The notes under the pieces were generated by a model. The model was not told where the DNA came from and searched no databases. It worked only from the letters and a program-made list of their open reading frames with translations. This document shows positions 12,095 through 43,705 of a DNA stretch of 64,000 nt, one piece after another. Source of the DNA: Daedaleopsis sinensis (Eukaryota > Basidiomycota > Agaricomycetes > Polyporales > Polyporaceae); NCBI GenBank assembly GCA_033807695.1, contig CM066303.1, forward strand, positions 1,860,001 to 1,924,000. Direction: 5' to 3'. Position 1 is the first letter of the stretch; the number at the start of each line of letters is the position of its first letter. The translations under genes were made by a program, and so were the position numbers.

Positions 12095-15000
12095 GCGACA
12101 ACGGAACGATAACACGTTGAAAGACGTCACACCGTTCCCAGATCAGGACAACATTCGATACGATGTCGCACGTGCAAAATATCGCACAAAGATCGATATG
12201 TCCGACGCGTACGAGCAGATCCCGATAGAGGCAGAGGACGTCTGGAAGACGGCGTTCTCTACCATCTACGGAACTGCCATCTCACACGTCATGCAGCAAG
12301 GCGACTGCAATGCTCCCAGTACGTTCCAACGACTCATGACATGGATATTCCGAGAATACATCGGAATATTCGTGCACATATATCTTGATGATATATTCGT
12401 GTTCTCGGAAACTATGGAGGAACACGAGAGTCACTTGACCCTCGTGTTCCAGCGTCTCCGAGAGCAGCGAATGTACCTCAGCAAATCCAAACTAGACCTA
12501 TACTCCGAGAGCATGGACTGTCTCGGCCATCTAATAGATGACAAGGGACTCCACGCTGACTCGGACAAGATGGCTCGCATCCGCGACTGGAGGCCCATGA
12601 GATCGTTGAACGAAGTTCAACGATTTCTCGGACTCGTACAGTATCTGGCCCATTTCTTGCCCGACGTATCTGCATATACGTCGCCGCTCGAATCTATATG
12701 CCGGAACGGGCAACCTTTCCACTGGAGGCCGATTCATCAAGCGTGCTTGAATCGAATCAAGGCTCTGGCGTGCAAGGTGCCCATACTAAAGCCCATAGAT
12801 CCCAAATCGGACGAACCGATTTGGGTGATCACGGACGCTTCAGTATATGGGGTCGGAGCCGTCTATGGACAAGGACCCGACTGGCGAACGTGTCGCCCAG
12901 CCGGGTTCATGTCCAAGAAATTCTCATCAGCGCAACGATCATATCACACCTATGAGCAGGAAGCACTGGGTGTGATTGAGGCGTTGATGAAATGGGAAGA
13001 CCGGCTGATTGGCCGCAAGTTCTTCATCGCGACTGACCATGAGGCTCTCACGAAGCTGAAGACAGCCTCGAGAGAGACCAAAAGTGGCCGGATCATACGA
13101 TGGACCGAGTTCTTGGATCGATTCGACGCGCAGGTAGTGCACGTCGAAGGCGAGCAGAACAAGGTCGCGGACTGTCTGTCGCGGTACTACGAAAACGATG
13201 GGGCAGACGATTTCCATCCAGTCGAGGAGTACGTCAACGCAGACGTCCGCCTCAACCCGGAATTAGACGATCTGCCCGAAGCGCGGAGAAAGGAATTGAC
13301 TGCAGACGTGGAGGTTCGAGCTATGTCGCTTCGCCCCCCACGTCCCCGTAAGGTCGATCCAAATAATGCCGCCGAGTGGCCCGTGAAACGGACTCGGAAG
13401 CCGCGCGACAAGGTCGAACCGCGTGAAGTGGAGGCGGCGGAGATGCACGACGCTGTCAGCGCCGTGACACTCCGCCACATTCCTACCGATACTGCGACGC
13501 TGAAGCAGCGCTACGAGCTATCGGAAGTCACGGTAAAAGACGCCATGCAGGATGGACCTCCACTCGTCACCGCGCTCCGGACCAACGACGAATTGATGAA
13601 ATCAATTCGCGCTGGTTACGGAGCGGATGCACTGTTCAAGAAGGTAGTAGAAAAACCTTCTGCATACCCGAACTTCACGGTCGAGGACGAACTACTATAC
13701 GTCCGTACTCGACTGGGGTTCCAATGCCTGTGCATACCTCGAACGAAGCTCAAGGGTCGGCGACGATTGAACGAGATCGTCATCGACGCTGGGCATCGCA
13801 CAATTGGGCACCTGGGACCTAGGAAGACCATCGAATATTTGCGTCGATGGGTATGGTGGCCCAGAATGTCATTTGAAATCCAACAGTTCTGCGCTACATG
13901 CGAGACCTGCCAGATGTCAAAGACGAGCCCACAACCGCCCGCGGGATGGCTGCACTCGATGCCAATTCCACTGTTCCCGTGGCAGTCAGCGGGAATGGAC
14001 TTTTTGGGCCCATTCCCCGACGCCAACGGGTACAACTACATATGGGTGGTACTGTGTAGACTGACCAGCATGGTACATCTGATACCATGCCGCGTCACAG
14101 ATACGGCTACGGACCTAGCGTACATATACATCCGCGAAGTCATACGACTTCACGGAGTACCCGAAACAATCGTATCGGATCGTGACTCTAAGTTCACGTC
14201 GCGATTTTGGCAAGAGGTACAACGTCTACTAGGAACGCAGTTGCTCATGTCAACTGCGTTCCACCCGCAGACGGACGGAGCGTCAGAGCGTGCTATCAGA
14301 AACGTAGGACAGATCCTACGTTCAATAGTACACCCAGACCAGTCCGACTGGCAGGAGAAGCTCCCGCTAGTCGAATTCGCTATAAATTCAAGTGTCAGCT
14401 CATCTACGGGGTACGCACCTTTCGAACTAATATACGGATATATGCCCAAGATGTCGTCATTCCCGACGATATCTAGGGCTCTACCCGGAGCCAAAGCGTT
14501 TGCAGAGCGCGCCCGACTGAACCTGGAGCAGGCGCACGACGCGATCATCGAGAGTCGCGTCGTGGCGGCCCACCAGGCTAACCGGCGGCGTGCGGCGGAC
14601 CCTCCCCACTACAACGTTGGGGACTTAGTGTACTTATCCACTAAGAACCTGGCGTTGCCAAAGGGCAGGGCACGCAAACTAGCCCCAAAGTACATTGGAC
14701 CTTTCGAGATAAAGTCAGCGCATAATGATACATCTCATTATACGCTCGAATTACCGGAAGAGCTAAAGAAGCGACGAGTGCATCCATCGTTCCACTCGTC
14801 ACTTCTGAAGCCCCATAATGCGAACGATGACGAACTATTCCCCGCTCGGGAAACCAAGAAGTTTTACGACTTCGGTATGCCCGACGATTTGGAGTGGCAG
14901 GTGGACGAGATAGTGGGACATCGATGGCAAGGAAATGCCATCGAGCTCCTCGTACACTGGACAGTAGGCGAGCACACTTGGGAACCTGCGCACGAATGCG

Positions 15001-15119
15001 AGGATCTCAAGTCACTCGACGACTATCTAGCCGTACTCGGCGTAAGGGACTTGGCGCAGTTGCCGCGTAGGGAGCGCGATGCGCCCTCTACGAGTGCAAA
15101 TGGTCCAAGGCGAGAATAG
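12095..15119 (+). pseudogene. Element A Pol fragment, RT start missing
   Basis: The frame is open from the junction to the TAG at 15117-15119 and encodes the RT from just before the first catalytic Asp motif (KIDMSDAYEQI), through YLDD, RNase H, integrase and chromodomain. It differs from element B by at least three residues. One is Arg to Pro (codon 12222-12224) in the conserved motif after the first RT aspartate, likely harmful. The others are Val to Phe near 13872 and Ala to Ser near 15011. An upstream start at 11901 adds about 65 unrelated residues and is not a genuine N-terminus. Without gag-pro and an intact RT it cannot be autonomous. Confidence 0.85.
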
Positions 15120-15156
15120 CAATCAGGCCGCGCGCGTGTAATGACGCGTCGCGGCC
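15117..15156 (+). promoter_or_regulatory. UAG readthrough context and bulged stem, pol/ORF3 of element A
   Basis: TAG (15117-15119) is followed by CAATCA, which fits the CAR-YYA readthrough hexanucleotide. A 12-bp Watson-Crick stem then begins directly: 15126-15137 pairs with 15144-15156, with one bulged T at 15149 and a 6-nt loop. The downstream frame is the same as pol and open to 17693. Identical to the site in element B, so it is not independent evidence. Confidence 0.65.
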
Positions 15157-17693
15157 ACGTGACTGGAATTGAGGCTCCGCCCCAATTCCACATGCGTGGG
15201 ATAGCGCCAGCTCAGGACGCTGGCGGACTTCGAATCATTTTCCTGCATCTCTTCTTCTCAACTATCGCCTACTCCCACCCACCCGACCCGATGAACTCCC
15301 ACAACGCCCCAACCGCCGGCTCGCCGACAACAAGATCCACCGCCGGAGACTCGTGGGGCGCTGCGCCCACCAATACGTGGGGTGAGCCGTCCTCTCACGG
15401 TGGCTGGGGACCGCCGCCGCCACAGGACCCGAGTAGCGTGTCCAGAAGGGGAGGATCGGTGGCGGAAGCCCCCCCGCTTCCGCCGACCGTCCATGCCCCC
15501 CCGGCACCTCAACAACAACTCCCCCCGATCCCGCAATACTACCCGGGGCCGATGTACGGGCAACAGCCCATGTACATCGGCGCCCAGGGGTACCCAGTTC
15601 CCCAAATGATGACTGCAGCCGCCACCCCGGAGGACCCATGGCGCATTGCATACAATGCGTCATGCAAGACCGTCGAGGCGCTGCAGGCGCGCATCAACGA
15701 TCTTGCAAAACGGAACGACGAGGTCGAGGCCGAGCTTCGCGAGACGCGGCAACGAGAACACTCGTTGCGCGAACGCGAGGCTGAGGTCGCGAGGCGTGAG
15801 GCCGACTTGCAGCAACGTCAGTTGCAACTTGTCGGCCCGCCGCCCCGCAATCGCGACCTTCGCGCGTCGTCGCACGCACCGCCAAGGAGGTCCGACTCGG
15901 GATGGCCGCAGCGTCAGTTCGTGGCGCCCGCCACCGCCCAGCCGGCCGGCCCCTCGTCGTCAACTTCCACCGGCCCCTCCTCCGCAACCCAGAACCTCGG
16001 GCCCGCTGCTCCGCCCAACCAGACGGTCGAGACTACTGTCCCGATCGTCCAGCTGGCGGACCAGGACACCCCGATGACGATCGCCGAGAACGCCCCGGCC
16101 GAATCGTCATCCGGGATCATCCCATTAAAGCGCGCCAACGAGGATGGGAACGCTATGGCAGTCGTGCCCGCGCCCGCGATCGACAACGCGCAGCTCCAGC
16201 GCGACGATTTGGGCCAGCGTATTCCCAACGCGCTCATCTCGTCGCACGCTGTTGGCCCAGGGCCTGACCCTTCAGTCGAGGGCCAGCCCTGGTCCAAGTG
16301 GTATATATGGTGGCGCGGCTCGAACGTGGGCGAGCAGATCGACAAAGTGCTCGACACCACTCCCTCCGCGAACGAGCATGGGCCAGTCCCATTCGAGATC
16401 CCAGAGTGGGCAGAGAACGAGTGCACGACGGAGGGTGAGGAAGAGGAGGACAAGCGTGTTCGTCGATCGGCTCGCCGACCGAAGAGCACTCCTCCTCCCA
16501 ACCCCCCCAAATTCGGGCAGCTGCCGTGTGGTCCTTGGGAGGGAGTGAAGATTGTGACGCTCCACCAAGCGCACAACCTTCGCTGCCTCGCCATCAACGA
16601 GAAGAACGTCGAGGCCATGCGCTTTTATACGCGCTTGACGCACGTCGCGCACGAGCCAACTGCGCGCCGAAATGAGGGGCTTCGCTACCTCATTTCGGCG
16701 TACCCGCACGACCAGAAGTACATCGCGCCTTTCAAAGCGCAGGCACTCGAAAATGTCCCTCCCGTTCCCGGACCATCCTCATCATCATCATCCCTTCCTG
16801 CTCCCGTCGCCCCTGCCGAGCCGCAGATCCCCGCGCTCCGCGTCATCCCCTACGAGACCGATACCGCCCAGCAGTGGCTCACGCGCTCGAGATCGGGCCG
16901 TGACCGGTTCATCTCGAGCCTTGGGTCCACCGGCGAGGTGATCCGTCACTTCGCGGCGAAGCCAACCGCGGAATGGCCGCTTGGGATGCGCACGCGCGAG
17001 AACCTTGTTCCGGCTCCCCCGACGGTCCTCGCGATGCCGCAGGCCGCCGACGTCGTGGCTGAGACGTTTCTCTCCACGATCCTGCCATTCGTGCCGCCCG
17101 GTGTCGTCGAGCGGTACGAGGAGTCCTCATTCTTCCGCGGCGCTATCGAGCTCCTCTCCATCGACGGCGTGTACGAGTGGATCGTACAGCAAGGGCAGTA
17201 CGACATGCTGCTAGTGGAGATGACCCCGGCGCCCTACCCCTACGACTGCCGAGGCCTCTGCTACCACCACATCGCGGCCTGGATAGCGGCGCATTCGGCA
17301 CCCTCGCTCGGCGAGCTCACCGCGGCCCTCCACTCCTACGCGCGCCAGACCCGTTGCCGTCTCGAGGACCTCCCTATCGGCACTACCCGCTTCCCCTCCG
17401 TGCCCCGCGACACCCTCGACATCTGCCACGAGTCGTACGCGTCTCGCATACCACTGCGCGAGCATGCATTCGCCCGCGCGGAACGCGACTACAACACCCC
17501 GCCGGCTGAGGACATCATAATGGGAGAAGCGCCCGCGCGAATCGCGCCGCCGCCCACTACCCCTTCCTCATCCTCATCCGCCGCTCGCGCCGCCGCTTCC
17601 GCCGCCGCACCCTCGTCGTCCGCACCCGCTGCCGCCATCGCACCGTCCGCCGCTGCCGCTCCCACTTCCGCTCCCGCTCCCTCCACGGACTAG
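15141..17693 (+). CDS. Third ORF (env position) of element A, 850 codons, unknown function
   Basis: In frame with pol, seven codons after its stop. The first ATG (15141) lies in the loop of the readthrough stem; the next, at 15291, would give 800 aa. The protein has a Pro/Ser/Gln-rich N-terminus, a strong charged coiled coil at about residues 175-235, and a Pro/Ser/Thr linker. Two Trp/Tyr-rich folded-looking parts follow (about 375-530 and 580-800), then an Ala/Ser/Pro-rich tail. There is no signal peptide, convincing membrane anchor or catalytic motif, so it does not look like an envelope glycoprotein. I do not recognise the family. It remains intact although the element is truncated, and differs from B at very few residues (for example Leu/Phe near 15996). 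Confidence 0.75.
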   Translation: MTRRGHVTGIEAPPQFHMRGIAPAQDAGGLRIIFLHLFFSTIAYSHPPDPMNSHNAPTAGSPTTRSTAGDSWGAAPTNTWGEPSSHGGWGPPPPQDPSSVSRRGGSVAEAPPLPPTVHAPPAPQQQLPPIPQYYPGPMYGQQPMYIGAQGYPVPQMMTAAATPEDPWRIAYNASCKTVEALQARINDLAKRNDEVEAELRETRQREHSLREREAEVARREADLQQRQLQLVGPPPRNRDLRASSHAPPRRSDSGWPQRQFVAPATAQPAGPSSSTSTGPSSATQNLGPAAPPNQTVETTVPIVQLADQDTPMTIAENAPAESSSGIIPLKRANEDGNAMAVVPAPAIDNAQLQRDDLGQRIPNALISSHAVGPGPDPSVEGQPWSKWYIWWRGSNVGEQIDKVLDTTPSANEHGPVPFEIPEWAENECTTEGEEEEDKRVRRSARRPKSTPPPNPPKFGQLPCGPWEGVKIVTLHQAHNLRCLAINEKNVEAMRFYTRLTHVAHEPTARRNEGLRYLISAYPHDQKYIAPFKAQALENVPPVPGPSSSSSSLPAPVAPAEPQIPALRVIPYETDTAQQWLTRSRSGRDRFISSLGSTGEVIRHFAAKPTAEWPLGMRTRENLVPAPPTVLAMPQAADVVAETFLSTILPFVPPGVVERYEESSFFRGAIELLSIDGVYEWIVQQGQYDMLLVEMTPAPYPYDCRGLCYHHIAAWIAAHSAPSLGELTAALHSYARQTRCRLEDLPIGTTRFPSVPRDTLDICHESYASRIPLREHAFARAERDYNTPPAEDIIMGEAPARIAPPPTTPSSSSSAARAAASAAAPSSSAPAAAIAPSAAAAPTSAPAPSTD

Positions 17694-17798
17694 TTCCCCG
17701 GTTACGTTCGTTACCATCTTCCTTCGCACGCGCATCCTGCGCGATCCATTCATTCTATTTCTATTGGTTTACGTATATGTTCCGACCGCTGCTCGGTC

Positions 17799-17811
17799 GA
17801 GAGGGGGAGGA
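17799..17811 (+). other. Polypurine tract of element A
   Basis: GAGAGGGGGAGGA directly precedes the TGTAAA start of the 3' LTR, the expected place for the plus-strand DNA primer of an LTR retrotransposon. Confidence 0.75.
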
Positions 17812-18058
17812 TGTAAAGGCCGCGAGGCGTTAATACCCCGGTATTAACGCCTAGTGGCTGTGCTGGCGTCTCGAACCATGGACTACCGCTTATATCATCA
17901 CTGTGGCTGAAGTACTGTACAGTTATCATGTAGTGTATCCGCGTATCAGGGGAAGAGAGAGGACAACTCTCTCTTCACCCCCCGTTGTACACGTCTCCTG
18001 AATATACAGGCTTGGACGAGTCACGACTAGGGCGAGGAGTAGACTCTGTGCATTTACA
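17812..18058 (+). repeat. 3' LTR of element A (247 bp)
   Basis: Starts TGTAAA and ends TTTACA (6-bp terminal inverted repeat). By eye it is identical to both LTRs of element B. With no 5' LTR present, a target duplication cannot be checked. Confidence 0.9.
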
Positions 18059-19449
18059 CCTGAGGATCGCGTATACAGCCATCAAACTAACCTCACAGAG
18101 ACGCCCCAAGTAGCGAGACTGCTACTATTCAAGCATGATGCTCCTCACTGTTCTCAGCTTTAAGCAATAGCACATATAAAAGGGCACATACATTGTGGAG
18201 AGGCATGTCCATATAGGATGAAAGGAGAGGGCCCGGGAAGGATAGCTCTCCAAAGGTTCATGTGGATAATACTGGTGTCGGACTTGGACTCAGACTTGTT
18301 GCGGCGATCTCACGCCGTTCGGAACAACTATCCGCAGTTTGCAGTTGTAGATGTGGGGACGAGAAGTCCGGGCATTTGCGTTTGAAGCTCATTCAGACAC
18401 CGATCACACGGAACATGGAGGAGCGCCAGCCATTCGGTACTGAGAACTTTGTATGGAATTGACCTTGTCTGCTCTGGAACCTGTTCAGAACTTCCGTATC
18501 CTCGTGCATGATCTGCAGGAGAAGCAGAAAGTCAGTCACAAGGATGCCACTGCTAGCACATGAGTAGTAGTACTTGACTGAAGACCGTGACAATGAGGCT
18601 CCGTAAAATGGATCCCAATGTTCCTGGCTCTCGGATTCAGATGTGTACGCATAGACTGCCGAAAGTACGCTAACCTCGCATGTCGGTGATGGTGGGAGAG
18701 AACAGGAGCGCGCCTGCCCAAATGGGTATGTTCAACAAGATTGAGACGCTCGACTGCGGGTGGCTGTCCCTTTCTCTTCTCTCCAACCATCGTCAACCAT
18801 GACTGAAGAATATCTGGTCGTTTCCAGATCAGCATGTGTGAGCTCACAAAATACTCATGTCCAGAGTGGATTCCGAACTTGATCTGCGAAGGTACGCCCA
18901 GCTTATGCTTTACGGTGAAACTATGGCTAACCGAGTTCCCACACTACTAGGTATATTGAGTGGATACACGAGATTTGATACGCTCACCGACCTGCTTTTC
19001 TGGTCATTGGCGAACACTGCTCCGTGTCTCATGATTATTCGGATGTGCACGGAGCACGGAATCAGTAATTTGGACTCCACGCACCGATTCATCCATCTCA
19101 AGCTGTAGCAAGCAGCTCCATGGCCGCCTCCGTAGCCTCACTCCATGGCCATTTACTCCCCTCCTCCGACTTGTCTCTTGCTGAGCACCACTAGACATAC
19201 AGTGTTGAATGCCACACACCCTCTGTACCAAGTGCTGTATCTGTGGCTGCTCATGTCACGGAAGGTACGCTAAATTGAGCACATTGCCGACACTCCTCCC
19301 GGGTCTCTCACACTTATTTCACGCAGAGCGAAGTGACGATTGTCCGCCATCACAGTGCAAGCGCAGCTCCGACTCTCGGGATCTTAGCTCACTCTCGTAG
19401 CTTGCCTCGCCGTCTCAAGATCCTCCTCTCCCGCACACTGCAGTTCTCA
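18059..19449 (+). other. Left part of X1: no firm gene, possible decayed spliced gene
   Basis: A strong TATA box (TATAAAAGG, 18175-18183) is followed by 1.2 kb without a long ORF. Several stretches look like short introns: 18897-18955 starts GTACGC, contains GGCTAAC and ends ACTAG. Similar GTACGC starts occur near 18640 and 19265. Short frames between them encode nothing I recognise. The same stretch recurs at 30009-31395 and 51787-53173, but those copies are too recent for conservation to show coding. A small frame starting at 18857 differs between copies by substitutions and one 3-nt indel. Confidence 0.3.
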
Positions 19450-30400: not shown

Positions 30401-31801
30401 TCGGTACCGAGAACTTTGTATGGAATTGACCTTGTCTGCTCTGGAACCTGTTCAGAACTTCCGTATCCTCGTGCATGATCTGCAGGAGAAGCAGAAAGTC
30501 AGTCACAAGGATGCCACTGCTAGCACATGAGTAGTAGTACTTGACTGAAGACCGTGACAATGAGGCTCCGTAAAATAGATCCCAATGTTCCTGGCTCTCG
30601 GATTCAGATGTGTACGCATAGACTGCCGAAAGTACGCTAACCTCGCATGTCGGTGATGGTGGGAGAGAACAGGAGCGCGCCTGCCCAAATGGGTATGTTC
30701 AACAAGATTGAGACGCTCGACTGCGGGTGGCTGTCCCTTTCTCTTCTCTCCAACCATCGTCAACCACGACTGAAGAATACCTGCTCATTTCCAGATCAAC
30801 ATGTATGAGCTGCACAAAATACTCGTGTCCAGAGTGGATTCCGAACATGATCTGCAACGGTACGCCCAGCTTATGCGTTACGGTGAAACTATGGCTAACC
30901 GAGTTCCCACACTACTAGGTATATTGAGTGGATACACGAGATTTGATACGCTCACCGACCTGCTTTTCTGGTCATTGGCAAACACTGCTCCGTGTCTCAT
31001 GATTATTCGGATGTGCACGGAGCACGGAATCGGTAATTTGGACACGCACCGATTCATCCATCTCAAGCTGTAGCAAGCAGCTCCATGGCCGCCTCCGTAG
31101 CCTCACTCCATGGCCATTTACTCCCCTCCTCCGACTTGTCTCTTGCTGAGCACCACTAGACATACGGTGTTGAATGCCACACACCCTCTGTACCAAGTGC
31201 TGTATCTGTGGCTGCTCATGTCACGGAAGGTACGCTAAATTGAGCACATTGCCGACACTCCTCCGTGTCTCACACTCATTTCACGCAGAGCGATGTGATG
31301 GTTGTACGCCTTCACAAGACAAGCGCAACTCCGACTCTCGGGATCCCAGATCACTCTCGCAGCTGCCTCATCGTCTCAAGATCCTCCTTTCCCGCACACC
31401 GCAGCTGCCGCACACTCCGAGTCACACACATGTCTAGCACGCCGCCTTTCAGCCCGTCCGAGCTCGAGGTTCCAGAACACGTTCGCGAGGAGTGGGAGCA
31501 GTGGAGCTCGGAGCGGGACCGCCGACGGAGCGAGGTGCGGGCGAGGTTTACGTGGAGACTAGGTAAGCGCGATTAAACTAGCTGGTTGCACCACTAGCTA
31601 ACAGTCTACAGTTGCTCTCACTGGGAACAGGAGGGCGTTCATGCGGTGGACTCCGTCCGAGTACCTCAGAGTCGTGCTCGGCGAGTACGGCTGCAAGGTT
31701 GTCGGGTTCTGGCCGCCGGAGGTCCCGTTCAAGAACCCGAGCAAGCTGATGGGCGGGATCGCACCGCTGCAGACCTTGCTGGACCTGTGGATGTCCGGTG
31801 C

Positions 31802-31806
31802 ACTTC
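31802..31806 (+). repeat. Target-site duplication of element B (left)
   Basis: ACTTC abuts the 5' LTR and is repeated at 42083-42087 after the 3' LTR. The empty site in X3 (53580-53584) has a single ACTTC, which proves the insertion point and the 5-bp duplication. Confidence 0.95.
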
Positions 31807-32053
31807 TGTAAAGGCCGCGAGGCGTTAATACCCCGGTATTAACGCCTAGTGGCTGTGCTGGCGTCTCGAACCATGGACTACCGCTTATATCATCACTGTG
31901 GCTGAAGTACTGTACAGTTATCATGTAGTGTATCCGCGTATCAGGGGAAGAGAGAGGACAACTCTCTCTTCACCCCCCGTTGTACACGTCTCCTGAATAT
32001 ACAGGCTTGGACGAGTCACGACTAGGGCGAGGAGTAGACTCTGTGCATTTACA
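31807..32053 (+). repeat. 5' LTR of element B (247 bp)
   Basis: TGTAAA...TTTACA ends. It contains a near-perfect palindrome at 31821-31846 (GGCGTTAATACC, CC, GGTATTAACGCC). It also contains a 10-bp hairpin at 31947-31971 (GAAGAGAGAG, loop GACAA, CTCTCTCTTC). These may serve transcription control or RNA structure. Promoter and R-region borders cannot be fixed by eye. Confidence 0.95.
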
Positions 32054-32090
32054 TCTTTTTTGACTCGCCTCGTACTCAATTCTAGGCGAC

Positions 32091-35000
32091 ATGTCTTTCT
32101 CAGGCGACGCTTCGAATTCCCACCAGGCCGGCAATCCAAACGCGGATCCCACGACGAGGACCAATCCCTCGTCGCGAAGCACTCCGGCCGGAAGCTTCGC
32201 CACCGCCCCGACAGCTCCCCGGGCCCCGTACGTAACAGACGTACCGGACCAGGAACTGAGCCGGGGCGACAACTCAACATCAACGATTTCGCCGACTCCC
32301 CGAGGAGGACGGACCACCCCGCTGATCCGAGGCGCCCCCGGTGAGTCCCCCGAAATCCATCAACCAAATCCAACCATATCCCCGGCCGCGTTCGCGGCCA
32401 GTGCGTCGCAGATGGAAGCGGCGGCAGCGTCGAGTGATCGACGCCCCGCCCATTCCCCTGCGACGACCGAGGAAAGGCAGAACCGGGTGGCAGAAGTTGT
32501 CACGCAAAGCCAGTTAGCTTTGCGTGAACAAATGTATCTGCGCACCCAACAGCTTACCGAGCATGGCCACGAGTTAAATCAACTTCAAGCCCGCTCCACG
32601 GTAGTGATCCAGGAGTACGCCGATGAGGTACGAGCCGCACACGCCCGTACCAATCGCGCACTCCAGGACAACCAAAACATGATCCGCGATGTCGAGCAGA
32701 CCATCGCGGAGGCGCGACTGCTACTAGGGCTACCTCCACTATCGGAGATAGCCCAGCGCCGCAACATGGAGTTCAAGCCAGGCCCCCCAACTAACAATAC
32801 GGAGCAAGACTCGGCGTCGCACGCGGTAGCCGAGTCTACGAGCTCGCACGCGCGACAGTCTGGCGAGAGTCTTGACGAATACGACGCGCGAATCACGCGC
32901 GCCGTACGACATCAAGGTCGCAACCGGCAGGCCATCCAGCCGAATGTGGACGAGGTGCTCCATGCCGCGAACGCATCGATACCGTCCGAGAACGAATCGT
33001 CGCGCTCAGTAGTCCCGCCGCCCGCGTTTGATGAGTCGAACGTAGATAGATATGCGTATCTACGTCCCACGTACAATGATATATTAAACGAGCAGCACGA
33101 CGCTGCACGTATAATGCGCGACGCGCCTAACGCGCCGCGCGGCGAGAACGCGAATAGGGGGGAACAAAATAATGTCAGGTTTGTTGCCCCCTCCGGCGAG
33201 ACAGACCACTCGCGGCAGCCGGCGGGGTCCATCTCGGATGCACTCCGCCCAGGAGCTGCGAGGTATGGCAATGTCACAATATACACGGCGGGACAGCCGA
33301 TGAGCGTGCTCCAATCGACTGCCCCGCGCGCGGACACCACACCTACGGCGAATCCAAGAGCGCATCTCGACGCGCTCTTGGAGCAGCTTGTCAATAACAT
33401 CAGACACAAAGTAGGCAAGAAACTGGTCATCCCGGAAGGGATGAAGCATCCAAAGATTGAGGTACCATCTAAATATGATGGTGCTAACAACCACCAAGTA
33501 TTTTATACTTGGTTGGATGGAGTACTGGATTGGATGCGAGCATACAATGTATGCGGTCCGGACGCGGACGGATATCGACTGATATACTTGCGCCAGCATC
33601 TGAAAGGAGATGCTGACGACTGGTATGCTCAGGAGATAGACCATCCCGACAACTCGCGCACGCCATCGTTCGAGGAGGCAGTATGCCTCCTGCACGCAAG
33701 GTTCGTGCACTCGAGCACGGCTGCCCGCGCGACGGAGGAGTTCATAAAGTGCGCATATCGCTCTCAGAATGGAGTGGAGCGATATGCAGCGGACTTACGC
33801 CGCCGCGCGCGCGAGATGATCGAGCATCCAACGGAATATGAAATGAAACGGAAGCTATTCAACGGGCTGCCTGATAACATCCGACGTAACCTCAGCATTA
33901 ATCGAGGGATTACTGCTGAGTATAATCGTTGGGATACAATCGTGGAGAACGCTCGTCAACTCGAGGAGGCATATGCGGGCGCGGACGCGATTGGTCATCG
34001 CAACGCACCCACATATGTCCGCCCAACGACGAGCGCGAACCAGACAAGCCAGCACCGTCGAGACCGCGAAACGGGACGCAATCGGCACTCCCGCGAGCGA
34101 CCGCGATCGCAATCGCGCGACCGCGGCCGTCGCGAGGAACCACGCGAATCGAGCTCGCGCACACCGACTGCAAAGACGCCTTACCGTCCTCCTACCCCCG
34201 GAGCAAAACCGCGTGATAACGCGTGTTTCGCCTGTGGCCAAGTGGGGCATTTCCGCGGTGACCCGTCATGCCCAAAAGCATCGCAGGGACCCGCGAATGC
34301 CCGTCCTCGACCCCGTTTCCACTCGCAACGAGTAGAAGACGGCGAGGAATCCGAACTGGGACCCGGCCCCGAGCAATGGGGCGGATCCCAGTACGAGAGT
34401 GATCATGGCTCACAGGGCGAGCCAGAGGAGGAGGAAAACGGAGAGGACGATGCAAGCTCGGAAGTAGTACGGGCGCAATCAATGCGAATCATTGATTGCG
34501 ACTCGGAAACCGAGCCAGAAGAACCATACGTCCGTGTTTGCGCAATGCGTACGGAGCCCGGTGCAAAGGAGCGTGTGTATGCCATGAAGGCACACACGCC
34601 CCCGCAGGCCCCGAGAGAGCATTCGGCAACAGTACGGCGTAGGTCTACCACACCACTCATGGTACAACCCAACCGAAGCGCGAAAGAGACGGCGACGTTG
34701 TGCGCACTAGTCGACGTGAACGGGATCATGGCGTACACCCTGTTTGATACAGGGAGTACGACTGATTCGATCACGCCGGAGTTTGCACATATATGCCGTG
34801 CTCCAAAAATAATACTGGAGCAACAAGTCACTCTACAACTTGGATGCTCCGGTAGCCGATCGAAGATCAGCTATGGCACTAGAATACCGGTAAAGCTGGG
34901 GCCAGTGGACGATATCGTATACTTCGACCAAGTTAACCTTGATCGATACGACTGCGTCATTGGCACACCATTCATGGCAAAGTATGGAGTAGTGCTCGAT

Positions 35001-35105
35001 GTGCAGAGGCGGAACATTATAGTGAACGGCACTATAATCCCCGCCTTCAGCCATGAGCAGGACTCGGAGTACCGAAGCAACAGAAAGCGTGAAAGAAGTC
35101 CCTGA
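32091..35105 (+). CDS. Element B Gag-protease, 1004 aa
   Basis: Starts at the first ATG after the LTR, 37 nt downstream. The N-terminal third is Ser/Pro/Arg-rich and disordered-looking with a helical stretch around residues 135-220. The Gag (capsid-like) domain spans about 440-620 (motifs YDG, FYTWLDGVLDW, LKGDADDWYAQE). A zinc knuckle follows at about 710 (CFACGQVGHFRGDPSC, with six rather than four residues before the last Cys). An acidic linker leads to an aspartic protease with DTG near 886 and a VIGTPF motif. It packages element RNA and matures the polyprotein. The ORF ends in TGA, but the same frame continues open into pol. Confidence 0.9.
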   Translation: MSFSGDASNSHQAGNPNADPTTRTNPSSRSTPAGSFATAPTAPRAPYVTDVPDQELSRGDNSTSTISPTPRGGRTTPLIRGAPGESPEIHQPNPTISPAAFAASASQMEAAAASSDRRPAHSPATTEERQNRVAEVVTQSQLALREQMYLRTQQLTEHGHELNQLQARSTVVIQEYADEVRAAHARTNRALQDNQNMIRDVEQTIAEARLLLGLPPLSEIAQRRNMEFKPGPPTNNTEQDSASHAVAESTSSHARQSGESLDEYDARITRAVRHQGRNRQAIQPNVDEVLHAANASIPSENESSRSVVPPPAFDESNVDRYAYLRPTYNDILNEQHDAARIMRDAPNAPRGENANRGEQNNVRFVAPSGETDHSRQPAGSISDALRPGAARYGNVTIYTAGQPMSVLQSTAPRADTTPTANPRAHLDALLEQLVNNIRHKVGKKLVIPEGMKHPKIEVPSKYDGANNHQVFYTWLDGVLDWMRAYNVCGPDADGYRLIYLRQHLKGDADDWYAQEIDHPDNSRTPSFEEAVCLLHARFVHSSTAARATEEFIKCAYRSQNGVERYAADLRRRAREMIEHPTEYEMKRKLFNGLPDNIRRNLSINRGITAEYNRWDTIVENARQLEEAYAGADAIGHRNAPTYVRPTTSANQTSQHRRDRETGRNRHSRERPRSQSRDRGRREEPRESSSRTPTAKTPYRPPTPGAKPRDNACFACGQVGHFRGDPSCPKASQGPANARPRPRFHSQRVEDGEESELGPGPEQWGGSQYESDHGSQGEPEEEENGEDDASSEVVRAQSMRIIDCDSETEPEEPYVRVCAMRTEPGAKERVYAMKAHTPPQAPREHSATVRRRSTTPLMVQPNRSAKETATLCALVDVNGIMAYTLFDTGSTTDSITPEFAHICRAPKIILEQQVTLQLGCSGSRSKISYGTRIPVKLGPVDDIVYFDQVNLDRYDCVIGTPFMAKYGVVLDVQRRNIIVNGTIIPAFSHEQDSEYRSNRKRERSP

Positions 35106-35154
35106 CTCGCACACCCTCGCCGTGGTATTTCCAAAAGAAGTACCACGGTCGAGG
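35103..35154 (+). promoter_or_regulatory. UGA readthrough signal with bulged stem, gag-pro/pol of element B
   Basis: TGA (35103-35105) is followed by CTC. After a 9-nt spacer a 13-bp Watson-Crick stem forms between 35115-35127 and 35141-35154, with one bulged T at 35149 and a 13-nt loop. The frame after TGA is open from 35106 through pol. An in-frame leaky stop with a structure about 8 nt downstream is how gammaretroviruses make Gag-Pol. Here the structure is seen and the function inferred. Confidence 0.65.
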
Positions 35155-38100
35155 AAGTTGAAGATCAGGACCTACGAGCGCAACGTGCTAAACCCACGTT
35201 ACGCCATGATCATCCGTCAATATTTATCCCCTCGGACGAGGAGGATAAATATGAGAAAAAGAAGGCATCGGCAGACCGTAAAACTAAGAAGAAAAACAAA
35301 GTAAGTATCGTTGAAGAGGAAGATGAGGACATCAAGCGACAACGAGATGTTCCTCACCTTCCTCCACATCATCCTTCCATATTCATGCCGACGGATGAGG
35401 AAGACAAGGAGCCTTCCTCACCCCGTATGAAAAAGAAACCAAGAAAAACAACGCACCGCTACAAGTCGGCGCAAAAGGGTCGACCAGGTAAAGAGCAGGA
35501 GACGGACTCACCACCGTCTCCCTCTGAACCCCGATCAACCCAAGCTGAGCCTTCAAATACGAGTGCGAATACCACTAAACCGAGGATCGTGCATATACGA
35601 TACCCGGACAGTGAGCACGCTACACTATCCCGGATGGAGCCACGTATCAATACACGGGACTCTCGCAACCCGACGCCTCCGCTGAAGTATCGCGATACTG
35701 TCAGTCGGAAGTCGAGCGAGAACGTTCGCAGGGATCGGTTTGGACGAGAGGATCCGTACGGAATCAATGACGCCATGGAGGATGAGATAGTTAATCAACT
35801 GTCTCAGCCCCAGCTAAAAGAAGAAGAACTGCCTCATATACGGAAGAAGTGGATAGAGGAGGTATCCGATTTACTCGGAGACATCCCCCTAGTACTTCCT
35901 CCGTGGCGAGAAGTCAATCACCGAATACCGCTTGTTGACGATAACAAGCGGTATAACTACCATCATCCTCGATGCCCGGATGCGCTCAAGGGCGCCCTCC
36001 GGGAAAAGATGGATAAATACATCAATGCGCAATGGTGGGAAATGAAACCCGCCACGCAAGCCGCACCGTTGCTTTGCATTCCCAAAAAGAATGGAAAGCT
36101 ACGTACGGTGGTCGATGCGCGACAACGGAACGATAACACGTTGAAAGACGTCACACCGTTCCCAGATCAGGACAACATTCGATACGATGTCGCACGTGCA
36201 AAATATCGCACAAAGATCGATATGTCCGACGCGTACGAGCAGATCCGGATAGAGGCAGAGGACGTCTGGAAGACGGCGTTCTCTACCATCTACGGAACTG
36301 CCATTTCACACGTCATGCAGCAAGGCGACTGCAATGCTCCCAGTACGTTCCAACGACTCATGACATGGATATTCCGAGAATACATCGGAATATTCGTGCA
36401 CATATATCTTGATGACATATTCGTGTTCTCGGAAACTATGGAGGAACACGAGAGTCACTTGACCCTCGTGTTCCAGCGTCTCCGAGAGCAGCGAATGTAC
36501 CTCAGCAAATCCAAACTAGACCTATACTCCGAGAGCATGGACTGTCTCGGCCATCTAATAGATGACAAGGGACTCCACGCTGACTCGGACAAGATGGCTC
36601 GCATCCGCGACTGGAGGCCCATGAGATCGTTGAACGAAGTTCAACGATTTCTCGGACTCGTACAGTATCTGGCCCATTTCTTGCCCGACGTATCTGCATA
36701 TACGTCGCCGCTCGAATCTATATGCCGGAACGGGCAACCTTTCCACTGGAGGCCGATTCATCAAGCGTGCTTGAATCGAATCAAGGCTCTGGCGTGCAAG
36801 GTGCCCATACTAAAGCCCATAGATCCCAAATCGGACGAACCGATTTGGGTGATCACGGACGCTTCAGTATATGGGGTCGGAGCCGTCTATGGACAAGGAC
36901 CCGACTGGCGAACGTGTCGCCCAGCCGGGTTCATGTCCAAGAAATTCTCATCAGCGCAACGATCATATCACACCTATGAGCAGGAAGCACTGGGTGTGAT
37001 TGAGGCGTTGATGAAATGGGAAGACCGGCTGATTGGCCGCAAGTTCTTCATCGCGACTGACCATGAGGCTCTCACGAAGCTGAAGACAGCCTCGAGAGAG
37101 ACCAAAAGTGGCCGGATCATACGATGGACCGAGTTCTTGGATCGATTCGACGCGCAGGTAGTGCACGTCGAAGGCGAGCAGAACAAGGTCGCGGACTGTC
37201 TGTCGCGGTACTACGAAAACGATGGGGCAGACGATTTCCATCCAGTCGAGGAGTACGTCAACGCAGACGTCCGCCTCAACCCGGAATTAGACGATCTGCC
37301 CGAAGCGCGGAGAAAGGAATTGACTGCAGACGTGGAGGTTCGAGCTATGTCGCTTCGCCCGCCACGTCCCCGTAAGGTCGATCCAAATAATGCCGCCGAG
37401 TGGCCCGTGAAACGGACTCGGAAGCCGCGCGACAAGGTCGAACCGCGTGAAGTGGAGGCGGCGGAGATGCACGACGCTGTCAGCGCCGTGACACTCCGCC
37501 ACATTCCTACCGATACTGCGACGCTGAAGCAGCGCTACGAGCTATCGGAAGTCACGGTAAAAGACGCCATGCAGGATGGACCTCCACTCGTCACCGCGCT
37601 CCGGACCAACGACGAATTGATGAAATCAATTCGCGCTGGTTACGGAGCGGATGCACTGTTCAAGAAGGTAGTAGAAAAACCTTCTGCATACCCGAACTTC
37701 ACGGTCGAGGACGAACTACTATACGTCCGTACTCGACTGGGGTTCCAATGCCTGTGCATACCTCGAACGAAGCTCAAGGGTCGGCGACGATTGAACGAGA
37801 TCGTCATCGACGCTGGGCATCGCACAATTGGGCACCTGGGACCTAGGAAGACCATCGAATATTTGCGTCGATGGGTATGGTGGCCCAGAATGTCAGTTGA
37901 AATCCAACAGTTCTGCGCTACATGCGAGACCTGCCAGATGTCAAAGACGAGCCCACAACCGCCCGCGGGATGGCTGCACTCGATGCCAATTCCACTGTTC
38001 CCGTGGCAGTCAGCGGGAATGGACTTCTTGGGCCCATTCCCCGACGCCAACGGGTACAACTACATATGGGTGGTACTGTGTAGACTGACCAGCATGGTAC

Positions 38101-39143
38101 ATCTGATACCATGCCGCGTCACAGACACGGCTACGGACCTAGCGTACATATACATCCGCGAAGTCATACGACTTCACGGAGTACCCGAAACAATCGTATC
38201 GGATCGTGACTCTAAGTTCACGTCGCGATTTTGGCAAGAGGTACAACGTCTACTAGGAACGCAGTTGCTCATGTCAACTGCGTTCCACCCGCAGACGGAC
38301 GGAGCGTCAGAGCGTGCTATCAGAAACGTAGGACAGATCCTACGTTCAATAGTACACCCAGACCAGTCCGACTGGCAGGAGAAGCTCCCGCTAGTCGAAT
38401 TCGCTATAAATTCAAGTGTCAGCTCATCTACGGGGTACGCACCTTTCGAACTAATATACGGATATATGCCCAAGATGTCGTCATTCCCGACGATATCTAG
38501 GGCTCTACCCGGAGCCAAAGCGTTTGCAGAGCGCGCCCGACTGAACCTGGAGCAGGCGCACGACGCGATCATCGAGAGTCGCGTCGTGGCGGCCCACCAG
38601 GCTAACCGGCGGCGTGCGGCGGACCCTCCCCACTACAACGTTGGGGACTTAGTGTACTTATCCACTAAGAACCTGGCGTTGCCAAAGGGCAGGGCACGCA
38701 AACTAGCCCCAAAGTACATTGGACCTTTCGAGATAAAGTCAGCGCATAATGATACATCTCATTATACGCTCGAATTACCGGAAGAGCTAAAGAAGCGACG
38801 AGTGCATCCATCGTTCCACTCGTCACTTCTGAAGCCCCATAATGCGAACGATGACGAACTATTCCCCGCTCGGGAAACCAAGAAGTTTTACGACTTCGGT
38901 ATGCCCGACGATTTGGAGTGGCAGGTGGACGAGATAGTGGGACATCGATGGCAAGGAAATGCCATCGAGCTCCTCGTACACTGGACAGTAGGCGAGCACA
39001 CTTGGGAACCTGCGCACGAATGCGAGGATCTCAAGGCACTCGACGACTATCTAGCCGTACTCGGCGTAAGGGACTTGGCGCAGTTGCCGCGTAGGGAGCG
39101 CGATGCGCCCTCTACGAGTGCAAATGGTCCAAGGCGAGAATAG
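35106..39143 (+). CDS. Element B Pol: RT, RNase H, integrase, chromodomain
   Basis: The frame is open from the codon after the gag-pro TGA; the first ATG is 35385 (1252 aa from there, used for numbering). RT has the first catalytic Asp in KIDMSDAYEQI (about 279) and YLDD at 341-344. RNase H begins around WVITDAS and includes YEQEALG and ATDHEAL. Integrase has the HHCC zinc domain (GHRTIGHLG, CATCETC) and a catalytic core with MDFLGPF, IVSDRD and a Glu in ASERAIRN. The C-terminal chromodomain (WQVDEIVGHR, LLVHWTVGEHTWEP) places it among chromoviruses, where this domain targets integration to modified chromatin. It ends in TAG, then stays open into the third ORF. Confidence 0.93.
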   Translation, partial: LAHPRRGISKRSTTVEEVEDQDLRAQRAKPTLRHDHPSIFIPSDEEDKYEKKKASADRKTKKKNKVSIVEEEDEDIKRQRDVPHLPPHHPSIFMPTDEEDKEPSSPRMKKKPRKTTHRYKSAQKGRPGKEQETDSPPSPSEPRSTQAEPSNTSANTTKPRIVHIRYPDSEHATLSRMEPRINTRDSRNPTPPLKYRDTVSRKSSENVRRDRFGREDPYGINDAMEDEIVNQLSQPQLKEEELPHIRKKWIEEVSDLLGDIPLVLPPWREVNHRIPLVDDNKRYNYHHPRCPDALKGALREKMDKYINAQWWEMKPATQAAPLLCIPKKNGKLRTVVDARQRNDNTLKDVTPFPDQDNIRYDVARAKYRTKIDMSDAYEQIRIEAEDVWKTAFSTIYGTAISHVMQQGDCNAPSTFQRLMTWIFREYIGIFVHIYLDDIFVFSETMEEHESHLTLVFQRLREQRMYLSKSKLDLYSESMDCLGHLIDDKGLHADSDKMARIRDWRPMRSLNEVQRFLGLVQYLAHFLPDVSAYTSPLESICRNGQPFHWRPIHQACLNRIKALACKVPILKPIDPKSDEPIWVITDASVYGVGAVYGQGPDWRTCRPAGFMSKKFSSAQRSYHTYEQEALGVIEALMKWEDRLIGRKFFIATDHEALTKLKTASRETKSGRIIRWTEFLDRFDAQVVHVEGEQNKVADCLSRYYENDGADDFHPVEEYVNADVRLNPELDDLPEARRKELTADVEVRAMSLRPPRPRKVDPNNAAEWPVKRTRKPRDKVEPREVEAAEMHDAVSAVTLRHIPTDTATLKQRYELSEVTVKDAMQDGPPLVTALRTNDELMKSIRAGYGADALFKKVVEKPSAYPNFTVEDELLYVRTRLGFQCLCIPRTKLKGRRRLNEIVIDAGHRTIGHLGPRKTIEYLRRWVWWPRMSVEIQQFCATCETCQMSKTSPQPPAGWLHSMPIPLFPWQSAGMDFLGPFPDANGYNYIWVVLCRLTSMVHLIPCRVTDTATDLAYIYIREVIRLHGVPETIVSDRDSKFTSRFWQEVQRLLGTQLLMSTAFHPQTDGASERAIRNVGQILRSIVHPDQSDWQEKLPLVEFAINSSVSSSTGYAPFELIYGYMPKMSSFPTISRALPGAKAFAERARLNLEQAHDAIIESRVVAAHQANRRRAADPPHYNVGDLVYLSTKNLALPKGRARKLAPKYIGPFEIKSAHNDTSHYTLELPEELKKRRVHPSFHSSLLKPHNANDDELFPARETKKFYDFGMPDDLEWQVDEIVGHRWQGNAIELLVHWTVGEHTWEPAHECEDLKALDDYLAVLGVRDLAQLPRRERDAPSTSANGPRRE

Positions 39144-39180
39144 CAATCAGGCCGCGCGCGTGTAATGACGCGTCGCGGCC
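39141..39180 (+). promoter_or_regulatory. UAG-CARYYA readthrough signal with bulged stem, pol/ORF3 of element B
   Basis: TAG (39141-39143) is followed by CAATCA, matching CAR-YYA, the context of the tobamovirus readthrough stop and of the pol-env stop in the soybean element SIRE1. The hexamer is followed directly by a 12-bp stem, 39150-39161 with 39168-39180, with one bulged T at 39173 and a 6-nt loop. Seven sense codons link the stop to the ATG of the third ORF in the same frame. Confidence 0.7.
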
Positions 39181-41717
39181 ACGTGACTGGAATTGAGGCT
39201 CCGCCCCAATTCCACATGCGTGGGATAGCGCCAGCTCAGGACGCTGGCGGACTTCGAATCATTTTCCTGCATCTCTTCTTCTCGACTATCGCCTACTCCC
39301 ACCCACCCGACCCGATGAACTCCCACAACGCCCCAACCGCCGGCTCGCCGACAACAAGATCCACCGCCGGAGACTCGTGGGGCGCTGCGCCCACCAATAC
39401 GTGGGGTGAGCCGTCCTCTCACGGTGGCTGGGGACCGCCGCCGCCACAGGACCCGAGTAGCGTGTCCAGAAGGGGAGGATCGGTGGCGGAAGCCCCCCCG
39501 CTTCCGCCGACCGTCCATGCCCCCCCGGCACCTCAACAACAACTCCCCCCGATCCCGCAATACTACCCGGGGCCGATGTACGGGCAACAGCCCATGTACA
39601 TCGGCGCCCAGGGGTACCCAGTCCCACAAATGATGACTGCAGCCGCCACCCCGGAGGACCCATGGCGCATTGCATACAATGCGTCATGCAAGACCGTCGA
39701 GGCGCTGCAGGCGCGCATCAACGATCTTGCAAAACGGAACGACGAGGTCGAGGCCGAGCTTCGCGAGACGCGGCAACGAGAACACTCGTTGCGCGAACGC
39801 GAGGCTGAGGTCGCGAGGCGTGAGGCCGACTTGCAGCAACGTCAGTTGCAACTTGTCGGCCCGCCGCCCCGCAATCGCGACCTTCGCGCGTCGTCGCACG
39901 CACCGCCAAGGAGGTCCGACTCGGGATGGCCGCAGCGTCAGTTCGTGGCGCCCGCCACCGCCCAGCCGGCCGGCCCCTCGTCGTCAACTTCCACCGGCCC
40001 CTCCTCCGCAACCCAGAACTTCGGGCCCGCTGCTCCGCCCAACCAGACGGTCGAGACTACTGTCCCGATCGTCCAGCTGGCGGACCAGGACACCCCGATG
40101 ACGATCGCCGAGAACGCCCCGGCCGAATCGTCATCCGGGATCATCCCATTAAAGCGCGCCAACGAGGATGGGAACGCTATGGCAGTCGTGCCCGCGCCCG
40201 CGATCGACAACGCGCAGCTCCAGCGCGACGATTTGGGCCAGCGTATTCCCAACGCGCTCATCTCGTCGCACGCTGTTGGCCCAGGGCCTGACCCTTCAGT
40301 CGAGGGCCAGCCCTGGTCCAAGTGGTATATATGGTGGCGCGGCTCGAACGTGGGCGAGCAGATCGACAAAGTGCTCGACACCACTCCCTCCGCGAACGAG
40401 CATGGGCCAGTCCCATTCGAGATCCCGGAGTGGGCAGAGAACGAGTGCACGACGGAGGGCGAGGAAGAGGAGGACAAGCGTGTTCGTCGATCGGCTCGCC
40501 GACCGAAGAGCACTCCTCCTCCCAACCCCCCCAAATTCGGGCAGCTGCCGTGTGGTCCTTGGGAGGGAGTGAAGATTGTGACGCTCCACCAAGCGCACAA
40601 CCTTCGCTGCCTCGCCATCAACGAGAAGAACGTCGAGGCCATGCGCTTTTATACGCGCTTGACGCACGTCGCGCACGAGCCCACTGCGCGCCGAAATGAG
40701 GGGCTTCGCTACCTCATTTCGGCGTACCCGCACGACCAGAAGTACATCGCGCCTTTCAAAGCGCAGGCACTCGAAAATGTCCCTCCCGTTCCCGGACCAT
40801 CCTCATCATCATCATCCCTTCCTGCTCCCGTCGCCCCTGCCGAGCCGCAGATCCCCGCGCTCCGCGTCATCCCCTACGAGACCGATACCGCCCAGCAGTG
40901 GCTCACGCGCTCGAGATCGGGCCGTGACCGGTTCATCTCGAGCCTTGGGTCCACCGGCGAGGTGATCCGTCACTTCGCGGCGAAGCCAACCGCGGAATGG
41001 CCGCTTGGGATGCGCACGCGCGAGAACCTTGTTCCGGCTCCCCCGACGGTCCTCGCGATGCCGCAGGCCGCCGACGTCGTGGCTGAGACGTTTCTCTCCA
41101 CGATCCTGCCATTCGTGCCGCCCGGTGTCGTCGAGCGGTACGAGGAGTCCTCATTCTTCCGCGGCGCTATCGAGCTCCTCTCCATCGACGGCGTGTACGA
41201 GTGGATCGTACAGCAAGGGCAGTACGACATGCTGCTAGTGGAGATGACCCCGGCGCCCTACCCCTACGACTGCCGAGGCCTCTGCTACCACCACATCGCG
41301 GCCTGGATAGCGGCGCATTCGGCACCCTCGCTCGGCGAGCTCACCGCGGCCCTCCACTCCTACGCGCGCCAGACCCGTTGCCGTCTCGAGGACCTCCCTA
41401 TCGGCACTACCCGCTTCCCCTCCGTGCCCCGCGACACCCTCGACATCTGCCACGAGTCGTACGCGTCTCGCATACCACTGCGCGAGCATGCATTCGCCCG
41501 CGCGGAACGCGACTACAACACCCCGCCGGCTGAGGACATCATAATGGGAGAAGCGCCCGCGCGAATCGCGCCGCCGCCCACTACCCCTTCCTCCTCCTCA
41601 TCCGCCGCTCGCGCCGCCGCTTCCGCCGCCGCACCCTCGTCGTCCGCACCCGCCGCCGCCATCGCACCGTCCGCCGCTGCCGCTCCCACTTCCGCTCCCG
41701 CTCCCTCCACGGACTAG
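39165..41717 (+). CDS. Third ORF (env position) of element B, 850 codons, unknown function
   Basis: Same frame as pol. If made by readthrough it would be a C-terminal extension of the integrase-chromodomain; if started independently, the ATG at 39315 (800 aa) is the likelier start because 39165 sits in the stem loop. Layout: Pro/Gln-rich N-terminus, charged coiled coil at about 175-235, linker, and two aromatic-rich regions. The second contains EWPLGMRTRENL and YDCRGLCYHHIAAW. A low-complexity Ala/Ser/Pro tail ends it. No signal peptide or transmembrane anchor is seen, which argues against a classical Env. Possible roles are an accessory structural protein or a targeting partner of integrase; neither is shown. 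Confidence 0.8.
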   Translation: MTRRGHVTGIEAPPQFHMRGIAPAQDAGGLRIIFLHLFFSTIAYSHPPDPMNSHNAPTAGSPTTRSTAGDSWGAAPTNTWGEPSSHGGWGPPPPQDPSSVSRRGGSVAEAPPLPPTVHAPPAPQQQLPPIPQYYPGPMYGQQPMYIGAQGYPVPQMMTAAATPEDPWRIAYNASCKTVEALQARINDLAKRNDEVEAELRETRQREHSLREREAEVARREADLQQRQLQLVGPPPRNRDLRASSHAPPRRSDSGWPQRQFVAPATAQPAGPSSSTSTGPSSATQNFGPAAPPNQTVETTVPIVQLADQDTPMTIAENAPAESSSGIIPLKRANEDGNAMAVVPAPAIDNAQLQRDDLGQRIPNALISSHAVGPGPDPSVEGQPWSKWYIWWRGSNVGEQIDKVLDTTPSANEHGPVPFEIPEWAENECTTEGEEEEDKRVRRSARRPKSTPPPNPPKFGQLPCGPWEGVKIVTLHQAHNLRCLAINEKNVEAMRFYTRLTHVAHEPTARRNEGLRYLISAYPHDQKYIAPFKAQALENVPPVPGPSSSSSSLPAPVAPAEPQIPALRVIPYETDTAQQWLTRSRSGRDRFISSLGSTGEVIRHFAAKPTAEWPLGMRTRENLVPAPPTVLAMPQAADVVAETFLSTILPFVPPGVVERYEESSFFRGAIELLSIDGVYEWIVQQGQYDMLLVEMTPAPYPYDCRGLCYHHIAAWIAAHSAPSLGELTAALHSYARQTRCRLEDLPIGTTRFPSVPRDTLDICHESYASRIPLREHAFARAERDYNTPPAEDIIMGEAPARIAPPPTTPSSSSSAARAAASAAAPSSSAPAAAIAPSAAAAPTSAPAPSTD

Positions 41718-41822
41718 TTCCCCGGTTACGTTCGTTACCATCTTCCTTCGCACGCGCATCCTGCGCGATCCACTCATTCTATTTCTATTGGTTTACGTAT
41801 ATGTTACGACCGCTGCTCGGTC

Positions 41823-41835
41823 GAGAGGGGGAGGA
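41823..41835 (+). other. Polypurine tract of element B
   Basis: GAGAGGGGGAGGA immediately upstream of the 3' LTR, the plus-strand primer site. Confidence 0.8.
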
Positions 41836-42082
41836 TGTAAAGGCCGCGAGGCGTTAATACCCCGGTATTAACGCCTAGTGGCTGTGCTGGCGTCTCGAAC
41901 CATGGACTACCGCTTATATCATCACTGTGGCTGAAGTACTGTACAGTTATCATGTAGTGTATCCGCGTATCAGGGGAAGAGAGAGGACAACTCTCTCTTC
42001 ACCCCCCGTTGTACACGTCTCCTGAATATACAGGCTTGGACGAGTCACGACTAGGGCGAGGAGTAGACTCTGTGCATTTACA
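41836..42082 (+). repeat. 3' LTR of element B (247 bp)
   Basis: No difference from the 5' LTR at 31807-32053 was seen by eye, implying very recent insertion. The target duplication ACTTC follows at 42083-42087. Confidence 0.95.
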
Positions 42083-43551: not shown

Positions 43552-43697
43552 CGTGAGGGGAGTGGTAGCGGTTGACTTGGTGTGGTAGGCTGTATGTAGT
43601 TTGCTCCGCAGGTAAAGGTAGATTCTGAAGTGTCGTCCGTCACCGCAGCTGTAGGCCTTTAATACAGGTTGGCCAAGTGCTGGAAATGCATAGCGCT

Positions 43698-43705
43698 TTC
43701 CCGAA
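43698..43705 (-). promoter_or_regulatory. Heat-shock element of hsp20 copy 2
   Basis: TTCCCGAA, the same site and spacing as in copy 1. The following stretch to 45300 repeats the gene-free right part of X1. Confidence 0.5.

Follow-up and report, generated by a model that had tools for sequence, protein, structure and literature searches.

In-frame stop codons between gag-pro, pol, and a third open reading frame in a Daedaleopsis chromovirus: a candidate for two serial readthrough sites

A single readthrough stop is already described in fungal chromoviruses. The Tf1/sushi elements of fission yeast, i.e., Tj1, Tosmo1-3, and Tcry1, are reported to carry an in-frame TGA between Gag and Pol, and transposition of Tj1 is reported to require this gag stop (PMC4600332, PMC10085805). 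The sequence GAA TGA CT is described as strictly conserved around the stop in these elements (PMC10085805). The element presented in this study is likewise a chromovirus with an in-frame TGA, and the same GAA TGA CT is found at both stops of a related family in the same genome (family E). On the other hand, the fission-yeast elements have one stop and no third ORF. In the Tj1/Tosmo type, the stop lies before the protease (PR), whereas here PR is part of ORF1 and the stop follows it, and GAA TGA CT is not present at the first stop of the family to which our element belongs (family A, CCC TGA CTC).

Murine leukaemia virus has a UAG before PR and a pseudoknot downstream of it, and SIRE1-type copia elements, in which gag and pol are fused, have one leaky stop between pol and an env-like ORF. 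Double recoding is known from MMTV and HTLV, with two −1 frameshifts, and from Carnation mottle virus, with two ambers. Our element would share with murine leukaemia virus an in-frame stop that is read through to Gag-Pol and an RNA structure downstream, but the stop is a UGA after PR and the structure is a predicted hairpin 9 nt on. It resembles the SIRE1 type in the stop between pol and a third ORF and differs from it in that the SIRE1 type combines one leaky stop with a fused gag-pol. Nested products from one mRNA are common to MMTV, HTLV, and Carnation mottle virus as well, although these use frameshifts or are RNA viruses. The gag-UAG-pol readthrough of murine leukaemia virus has been described (PMC4178896), as have extra ORFs with no assigned function in some fungal Gypsy elements (PMC2864245). 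Tca2 of Candida albicans is a fungal LTR element with the same gag-UGA-pol layout, but its junction is reported to have given promoter activity and no readthrough in Saccharomyces cerevisiae, and the abstract of that report mentions no in-frame third ORF (PMC2194720). Among stop contexts, UAG CAA UYA is described as the leaky context of TMV and BNYVV, with 32% and 11% readthrough in a plant reporter (PMC2754532), and UGA CUA G as a known high-readthrough motif (PMC12233894). An earlier note on this DNA had suggested that two successive leaky stops in one element would be an undescribed strategy. The single chromovirus stop is known from the fission-yeast reports, whereas for the double case the suggestion holds as far as our search of the open-access literature extends, which found no double-readthrough LTR element; the phrase "double readthrough" appears there in two insect papers, concerning insect genes (PMC5100048, PMC3840789).

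The DNA analysed here, referred to as the window, is a stretch of 64,000 nucleotides from the agaricomycete Daedaleopsis sinensis, and the features of the element are listed in Table 1. The LTRs, target-site duplication (TSD), and polypurine tract expected of a Ty3/gypsy chromovirus are all present. The stop-to-stop frames are 1013, 1345, and 857 aa long. Pfam matches in ORF1 are RVP_2, Retrotrans_gag, and zf-CCHC, all three scoring under their cut-offs; in ORF2, RT, RNase H, H2C2, and SH3_Tf2-1 score over the cut-off and rve and Chromo under it. The domain order is that of Ty3/gypsy (PR, RT, RNase H, IN), with RVP_2 and rve just under the Pfam cut-off. The chromodomain match (PF00385; 17.2 bits against a cut-off of 25.1) is at its expected place at the C end of IN and adjoins SH3_Tf2-1, which is itself over the cut-off. 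The element is a young, recently inserted Ty3/gypsy chromovirus in an agaricomycete host. A search for a primer-binding or self-priming site against the LTR gave a longest complementarity of only 7 nt, and an Rfam scan of the window gave no match. Translation agrees with the earlier note in that gag-pro, pol, and a third ORF occupy a single frame (32091-41717) broken only by TGA 35103 and TAG 39141, and a terminal TAG closes the frame. The statement that pol has no nearby ATG also holds: no ATG occurs in the first 93 codons of the pol frame, and codon 94, at 35385, is the earliest. The third ORF had been placed seven codons after pol, and its first ATG is indeed there, at 39165, but a start at 39315 is better supported because family B and two fungal proteins begin similarly at that position in an alignment whose row L021 lacks the first Met.

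Table 1. Features of the element and of its truncated copy in the window
Feature	Positions	Strand	Remarks
TSD ACTTC (5 bp)	31802-31806 and 42083-42087		flanks element 31807-42082
5' LTR	31807..32053	+	247 bp, TGTAAAGG..CATTTACA; identical to 3' LTR
ORF1, Gag-PR, stop included	32091..35105	+	frame translation; Pfam matches below cut-off
First stop (J1), TGA, context CCC TGA CTC	35103..35105	+	pol-frame stop at this place in 17/17 copies, five subfamilies
ORF2, RT-RNaseH-IN-SH3-chromodomain, stop included	35106..39143	+	frame translation; Pfam
Predicted 17-pair hairpin after J1	35115..35154	+	starts 9 nt past the stop in A
Second stop (J2), TAG, context GAA TAG CAA TCA	39141..39143	+	identical in 8/8 family A copies having J2
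Leader, J2 to likely ORF3 ATG, open in frame	39144..39314	+	alignment with family B
Predicted 12-pair hairpin after J2	39150..39180	+	begins after 6 nt; 45-nt window in lowest 0.7% of element
ORF3, 800 aa	39315..41717	+	likely ATG at 39315
Polypurine tract GAGAGGGGGAGGA	41823..41835	+	immediately 5' of 3' LTR
3' LTR	41836..42082	+	247 bp, identical to 5' LTR
Second, 5'-truncated copy, same J2 (15117-15119) and ORF3	12095..18069	+	99.6% to 36119-42093

Two 11.5-kb tandem repeat units (20284-31806 and 42083-53584), 99.2% identical to each other, flank the element, and a partial third unit (53580-56732) is 97.5% identical to 42083-45252. A 5' piece matching the truncated copy (L048, C4:1856727-1860752), with Pol residues 1-342, lies outside the window approximately 13 kb upstream of that copy, which may thus have been split by an insertion. 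Two long ORFs on the minus strand (4101-8048, 1315 aa, and 8015-11773, 1252 aa) overlap in different frames and are perhaps another retroelement.

All element comparisons were made within one genome of 51.6 Mb in 24 contigs, in which relatives were found by Pol and ORF3 searches and assigned to subfamilies labelled A to E for this analysis. Pol identity to the window element is 98-100% in A, 73% in B, 59% in C3, 56% in C9, and 61% and 51%, in two pieces, in E. The sequence called E5 consists of two pieces approximately 31 kb apart on contig C5 (L053 for J1 and L063 for J2), which could be, but need not be, a single copy that was split. For Pol matches at 36-44% identity, J1 was judged by open-frame lengths, except in L045 and L047, and the region downstream of pol was read in L045, L047, L056, L057, and L060. 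L045 (40%) and L047 (39%) are chromoviruses further removed from the window element; their gag and pol share a stop-free frame (2728 and 2614 aa) that continues past pol into a Gly/Arg-rich extension. In L056 and L057, which belong to other chromovirus families, an apparent ORF after pol was read by eye in the +1 frame. The open frame of C9 is 1201 aa, as read from its sequence. Among the matches listed, the closest named Pol relatives are from Trametes versicolor (60-64%), and a viral-contig scan gave no confirmed relative of Pol. Gene models from Trametes, Lyophyllum, and Phlebia (6 of the 120 proteins listed) may carry model introns at the junction and were therefore not used as evidence.

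J1 was compared in nine copies of A (L031-L037, L048, and L049), three of B, one each of C3 and C9, and three of E, which share descent and represent approximately six different sequences (A, B, C3, C9, E2, and E5). The check suggested in the earlier note, run here within this genome, found that the stop and the zero frame persist in every copy despite divergent flanks. Three of the nine A copies are damaged, L036 by an upstream break in its gag frame and L037 and L049 by an additional stop. The distance from GTPF to J1 is 47, 47, 64, 64, 53, and 52 codons in A, B, C3, C9, E2, and E5, respectively, and that from J1 to LPPxR is 263, 248, 134, 138, and 55 codons in A, B, C3, C9, and E2 (the pattern has no match in E5). 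The flanking lengths thus vary widely while the stop stays in the pol frame, which indicates that many indels have left the zero frame intact. A, B, and E have the context TGA CTN (GAA TGA CT in all three E copies), C3 has TAG AGG, and C9 has TAG GAG; we do not know the last two as leaky contexts. Comparison of these sequences, with a pol-frame stop in five subfamilies and TGA CTN in three of them, supports the Gag-Pol readthrough that the earlier note had proposed. Programmed readthrough is the best-fitting and simplest account of J1 and in our view very probably the right one.

A hairpin is predicted downstream of J1 in A and B. In A, placing the 45-nt window at its best offset within 6 nt puts it in the lowest 0.15% of the element, compared with 4.1% at the fixed offset. 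With 55-nt windows at fixed offset, the folding ranks are 1.4% (A), 3.1% (B), 8.7% (C3), 5.1% (C9), 71% (E2), and 39% (E5), and the structure ranks in C3 and C9 span 0.7-9%. The hairpin is therefore not general. Family B has a predicted hairpin at the same position as A. With the structure of B as the reference, A retains 15 of the 16 pairs in a gapless comparison, 5 of them through two-sided change; none of 20000 random variants pairs as well as A, and the compensation has a P value of 0.005. With the structure of A as the reference, B retains 11 of 17 pairs (P = 0.06; compensation P = 0.58). The folding covered nested structures only.

At J2, all eight family A copies that have the site, including the truncated copy at 15117, read GAA TAG CAA TCA GGC, in which UAG CAA UCA agrees with the type I leaky pattern of TMV (UAG CAR YYA). 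The leader from J2 to 39315 is in frame in seven of the eight; in the degenerate L037 the frame is lost through a 1-nt deletion. Family E reads GAA TGA CTA G in L054 and L055 and GAA TGA CTG G in the diverged L063; in all three, an open leader of 55-57 codons continues in the same frame, and J2 thus carries the same 8 nt as J1 of this family. The structure after J2 in family E does not reach significance (P = 0.09 and 0.50). The contexts of B, C3, and C9 are ACT TAG ACG, GCT TGA CGC, and ACG TGA CCG, respectively; the leaky motifs of A and E are absent from them, and C3 and C9 have just the mildly favourable C after TGA. Among the 7051 stop trinucleotides of the window and 13 loci, J1 and J2 sites counted, TAGCARYYA occurs 6 times and GAATGACT 4 times; the window has no GAATGACT, and L050, L053, and L054 have one each, at the junctions. 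The terminal stops of ORF3, GAC TAG TTC in A and GCG TAG ACT in E, do not carry leaky motifs. The contexts at J2 were recognised post hoc, after inspection. The zero frame at J2 is found in two of the five subfamilies (A and E), which is chance level (1 in 3), so the case for J2 rests on the stop contexts. The second leaky stop proposed in the earlier note therefore fares unevenly: the contexts in A and E speak for it, but in three subfamilies (B, C3, and C9) pol and the third ORF do not share a frame, a finding of the kind that the note had named beforehand as counting against it, and the leader frame is broken in L037. Functional readthrough at J2 in A and E is plausible on these contexts, at about even odds, although unproven and not general.

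ORF3 has relatives in Lentinus brumalis (41% identity over 84%) and Trametes pubescens (27% over 37%), and a profile search for further relatives returned only the same two proteins. In its predicted layout, a low-complexity and coiled-coil N-terminal part is followed by a conserved middle block, and the C-terminal domain is helical. This domain can be aligned with B, C3, and C9 at 15-51% identity, and the third ORF of family E, 664 aa from its ATG, has a C end that is similar by eye. The full-length model is poor (mean pLDDT 44.2) and that of the C-terminal domain is fair (70.6, pTM 0.76). A fold search gave no match at an E value of 0.001 in PDB or BFVD, and a PDB sequence search gave nothing below 0.4. 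Pfam gave no match to the window ORF3 at an E value of 0.1 and, over four ORF3 sequences, coiled-coil-type matches only (best 0.00069, in one member). An accessory structural role is our guess. Frames of 210-246 aa at five further loci (L025-L029) match ORF3 residues 317-478 at 35-37% identity; four of them lie <10 kb from a contig end, beside repeats, and the fifth is 67 kb away. Possibly the ORF3 core has a subtelomeric relic or relative here.

Readthrough is not the only way in which the products downstream of the two stops could arise. Pol might be translated from its own transcript or by internal initiation past the gag stop, and the Tca2 junction, reported to act as a minor promoter, offers a precedent (PMC2194720). 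This is improbable for our element in view of the conserved Pol residues upstream of the first in-frame ATG in A and B (TTVEEVEDQD, common to both), the scattered position of that ATG (codon 94, 41, 106, 30, 20, and 152 in A, B, C3, C9, E2, and E5, respectively), and the zero frame retained in all five subfamilies. A spliced mRNA in which J1 is excised would also join gag to pol, and the CTGAC at the stop in A and B looks by inspection like a branch site. A scan for in-frame consensus introns (GT[AG]NGN..YAG, 45-150 nt) over J1, however, found none in A, B, C3, E2, and E5 and one candidate, without a branch site, in C9. An intron across J1 was accordingly rejected within the scope of consensus introns, with none in five of the six sequences, and we regard splicing as highly improbable beside programmed readthrough at J1.

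A more serious alternative, which we hold to be somewhat less probable than a second readthrough, is that only J1 is programmed and ORF3 is an independent gene, expressed from its own promoter or from an internal start at 39315, the frame and contexts at J2 being coincidental. The third ORF and pol occupy different frames in B, C3, and C9; stops intervene in B and C3, and in C9 the frame is open but shifted. The gaps in the A-B leader alignment are not divisible by three and break the frame, and the DNA blocks GGACTTYGAATC, TCTCTTC, and GACTCCCACCC are common to both leaders; the A leader also holds GGACTTCGAATC (39249-39260) and a pyrimidine-rich stretch common to family B. E2 and E5 have 21 identical bases in common shortly before the ATG, the context of which is CACCATG, and E2-E5 dN/dS is 0.67 in the leader, 0.20 at the ORF3 start, 0.33 in the pol tail, and 0.02 in RT. 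A neutral E leader would remain open with a probability of 0.37, and shuffled A leaders are open in 21% of cases. By these measures the leader shows conservation at the DNA level and weak coding constraint. The frame-breaking gaps and conserved blocks are like those of a promoter or 5' leader, and ORF3 thus probably has a start of its own as well. A bacterial promoter scan of the leader gave no match, the bacterial model not being applicable to fungi. Complete independence of ORF3 is, on the other hand, less easily reconciled with the stop contexts: it is the in-frame subfamilies A and E that carry described leaky motifs at J2, motifs that are rare among the stop trinucleotides, whereas B has TAG ACG and C3 and C9 have little that is favourable, and family E has the 8-mer of its J1 again at J2.

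The best explanation overall, to which we assign a probability of roughly 0.48, is readthrough at J1, a second readthrough at J2 in A and E, and an additional start for ORF3. The majority of ribosomes would terminate at J1 and release Gag-PR, and a minority, aided by the TGA CT context and the hairpin, would pass the TGA and produce Gag-PR-RT-IN. In A and E, a second and rarer programmed readthrough at J2 would yield a little Gag-PR-Pol-ORF3. The sequences show the frames and stops, their conservation and contexts, and the predicted hairpins; the readthrough itself and the ratio of its products are inferred. ORF3 would also be made from its own ATG at 39315, probably on a separate transcript or by internal initiation; this start, likewise inferred, is proposed because a related ORF3 persists in B, C3, and C9 in a frame other than that of pol.

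At these slightly less than even odds, a fungal chromovirus lineage would use two serial readthrough stops to make Gag-PR, Gag-PR-Pol, and Gag-PR-Pol-ORF3 from one mRNA in falling amounts, family E with one 8-nt signal used twice and family A with two signals that are each followed by a predicted hairpin, while related families would have uncoupled ORF3 from pol. If this is true, the element would be an LTR retroelement with two serial readthrough stops, and since the protease lies on the Gag side of the leaky stop, it would be made in Gag amounts. The sister families with an in-frame or an out-of-frame third ORF would then provide a natural comparison for the gain and loss of recoding.
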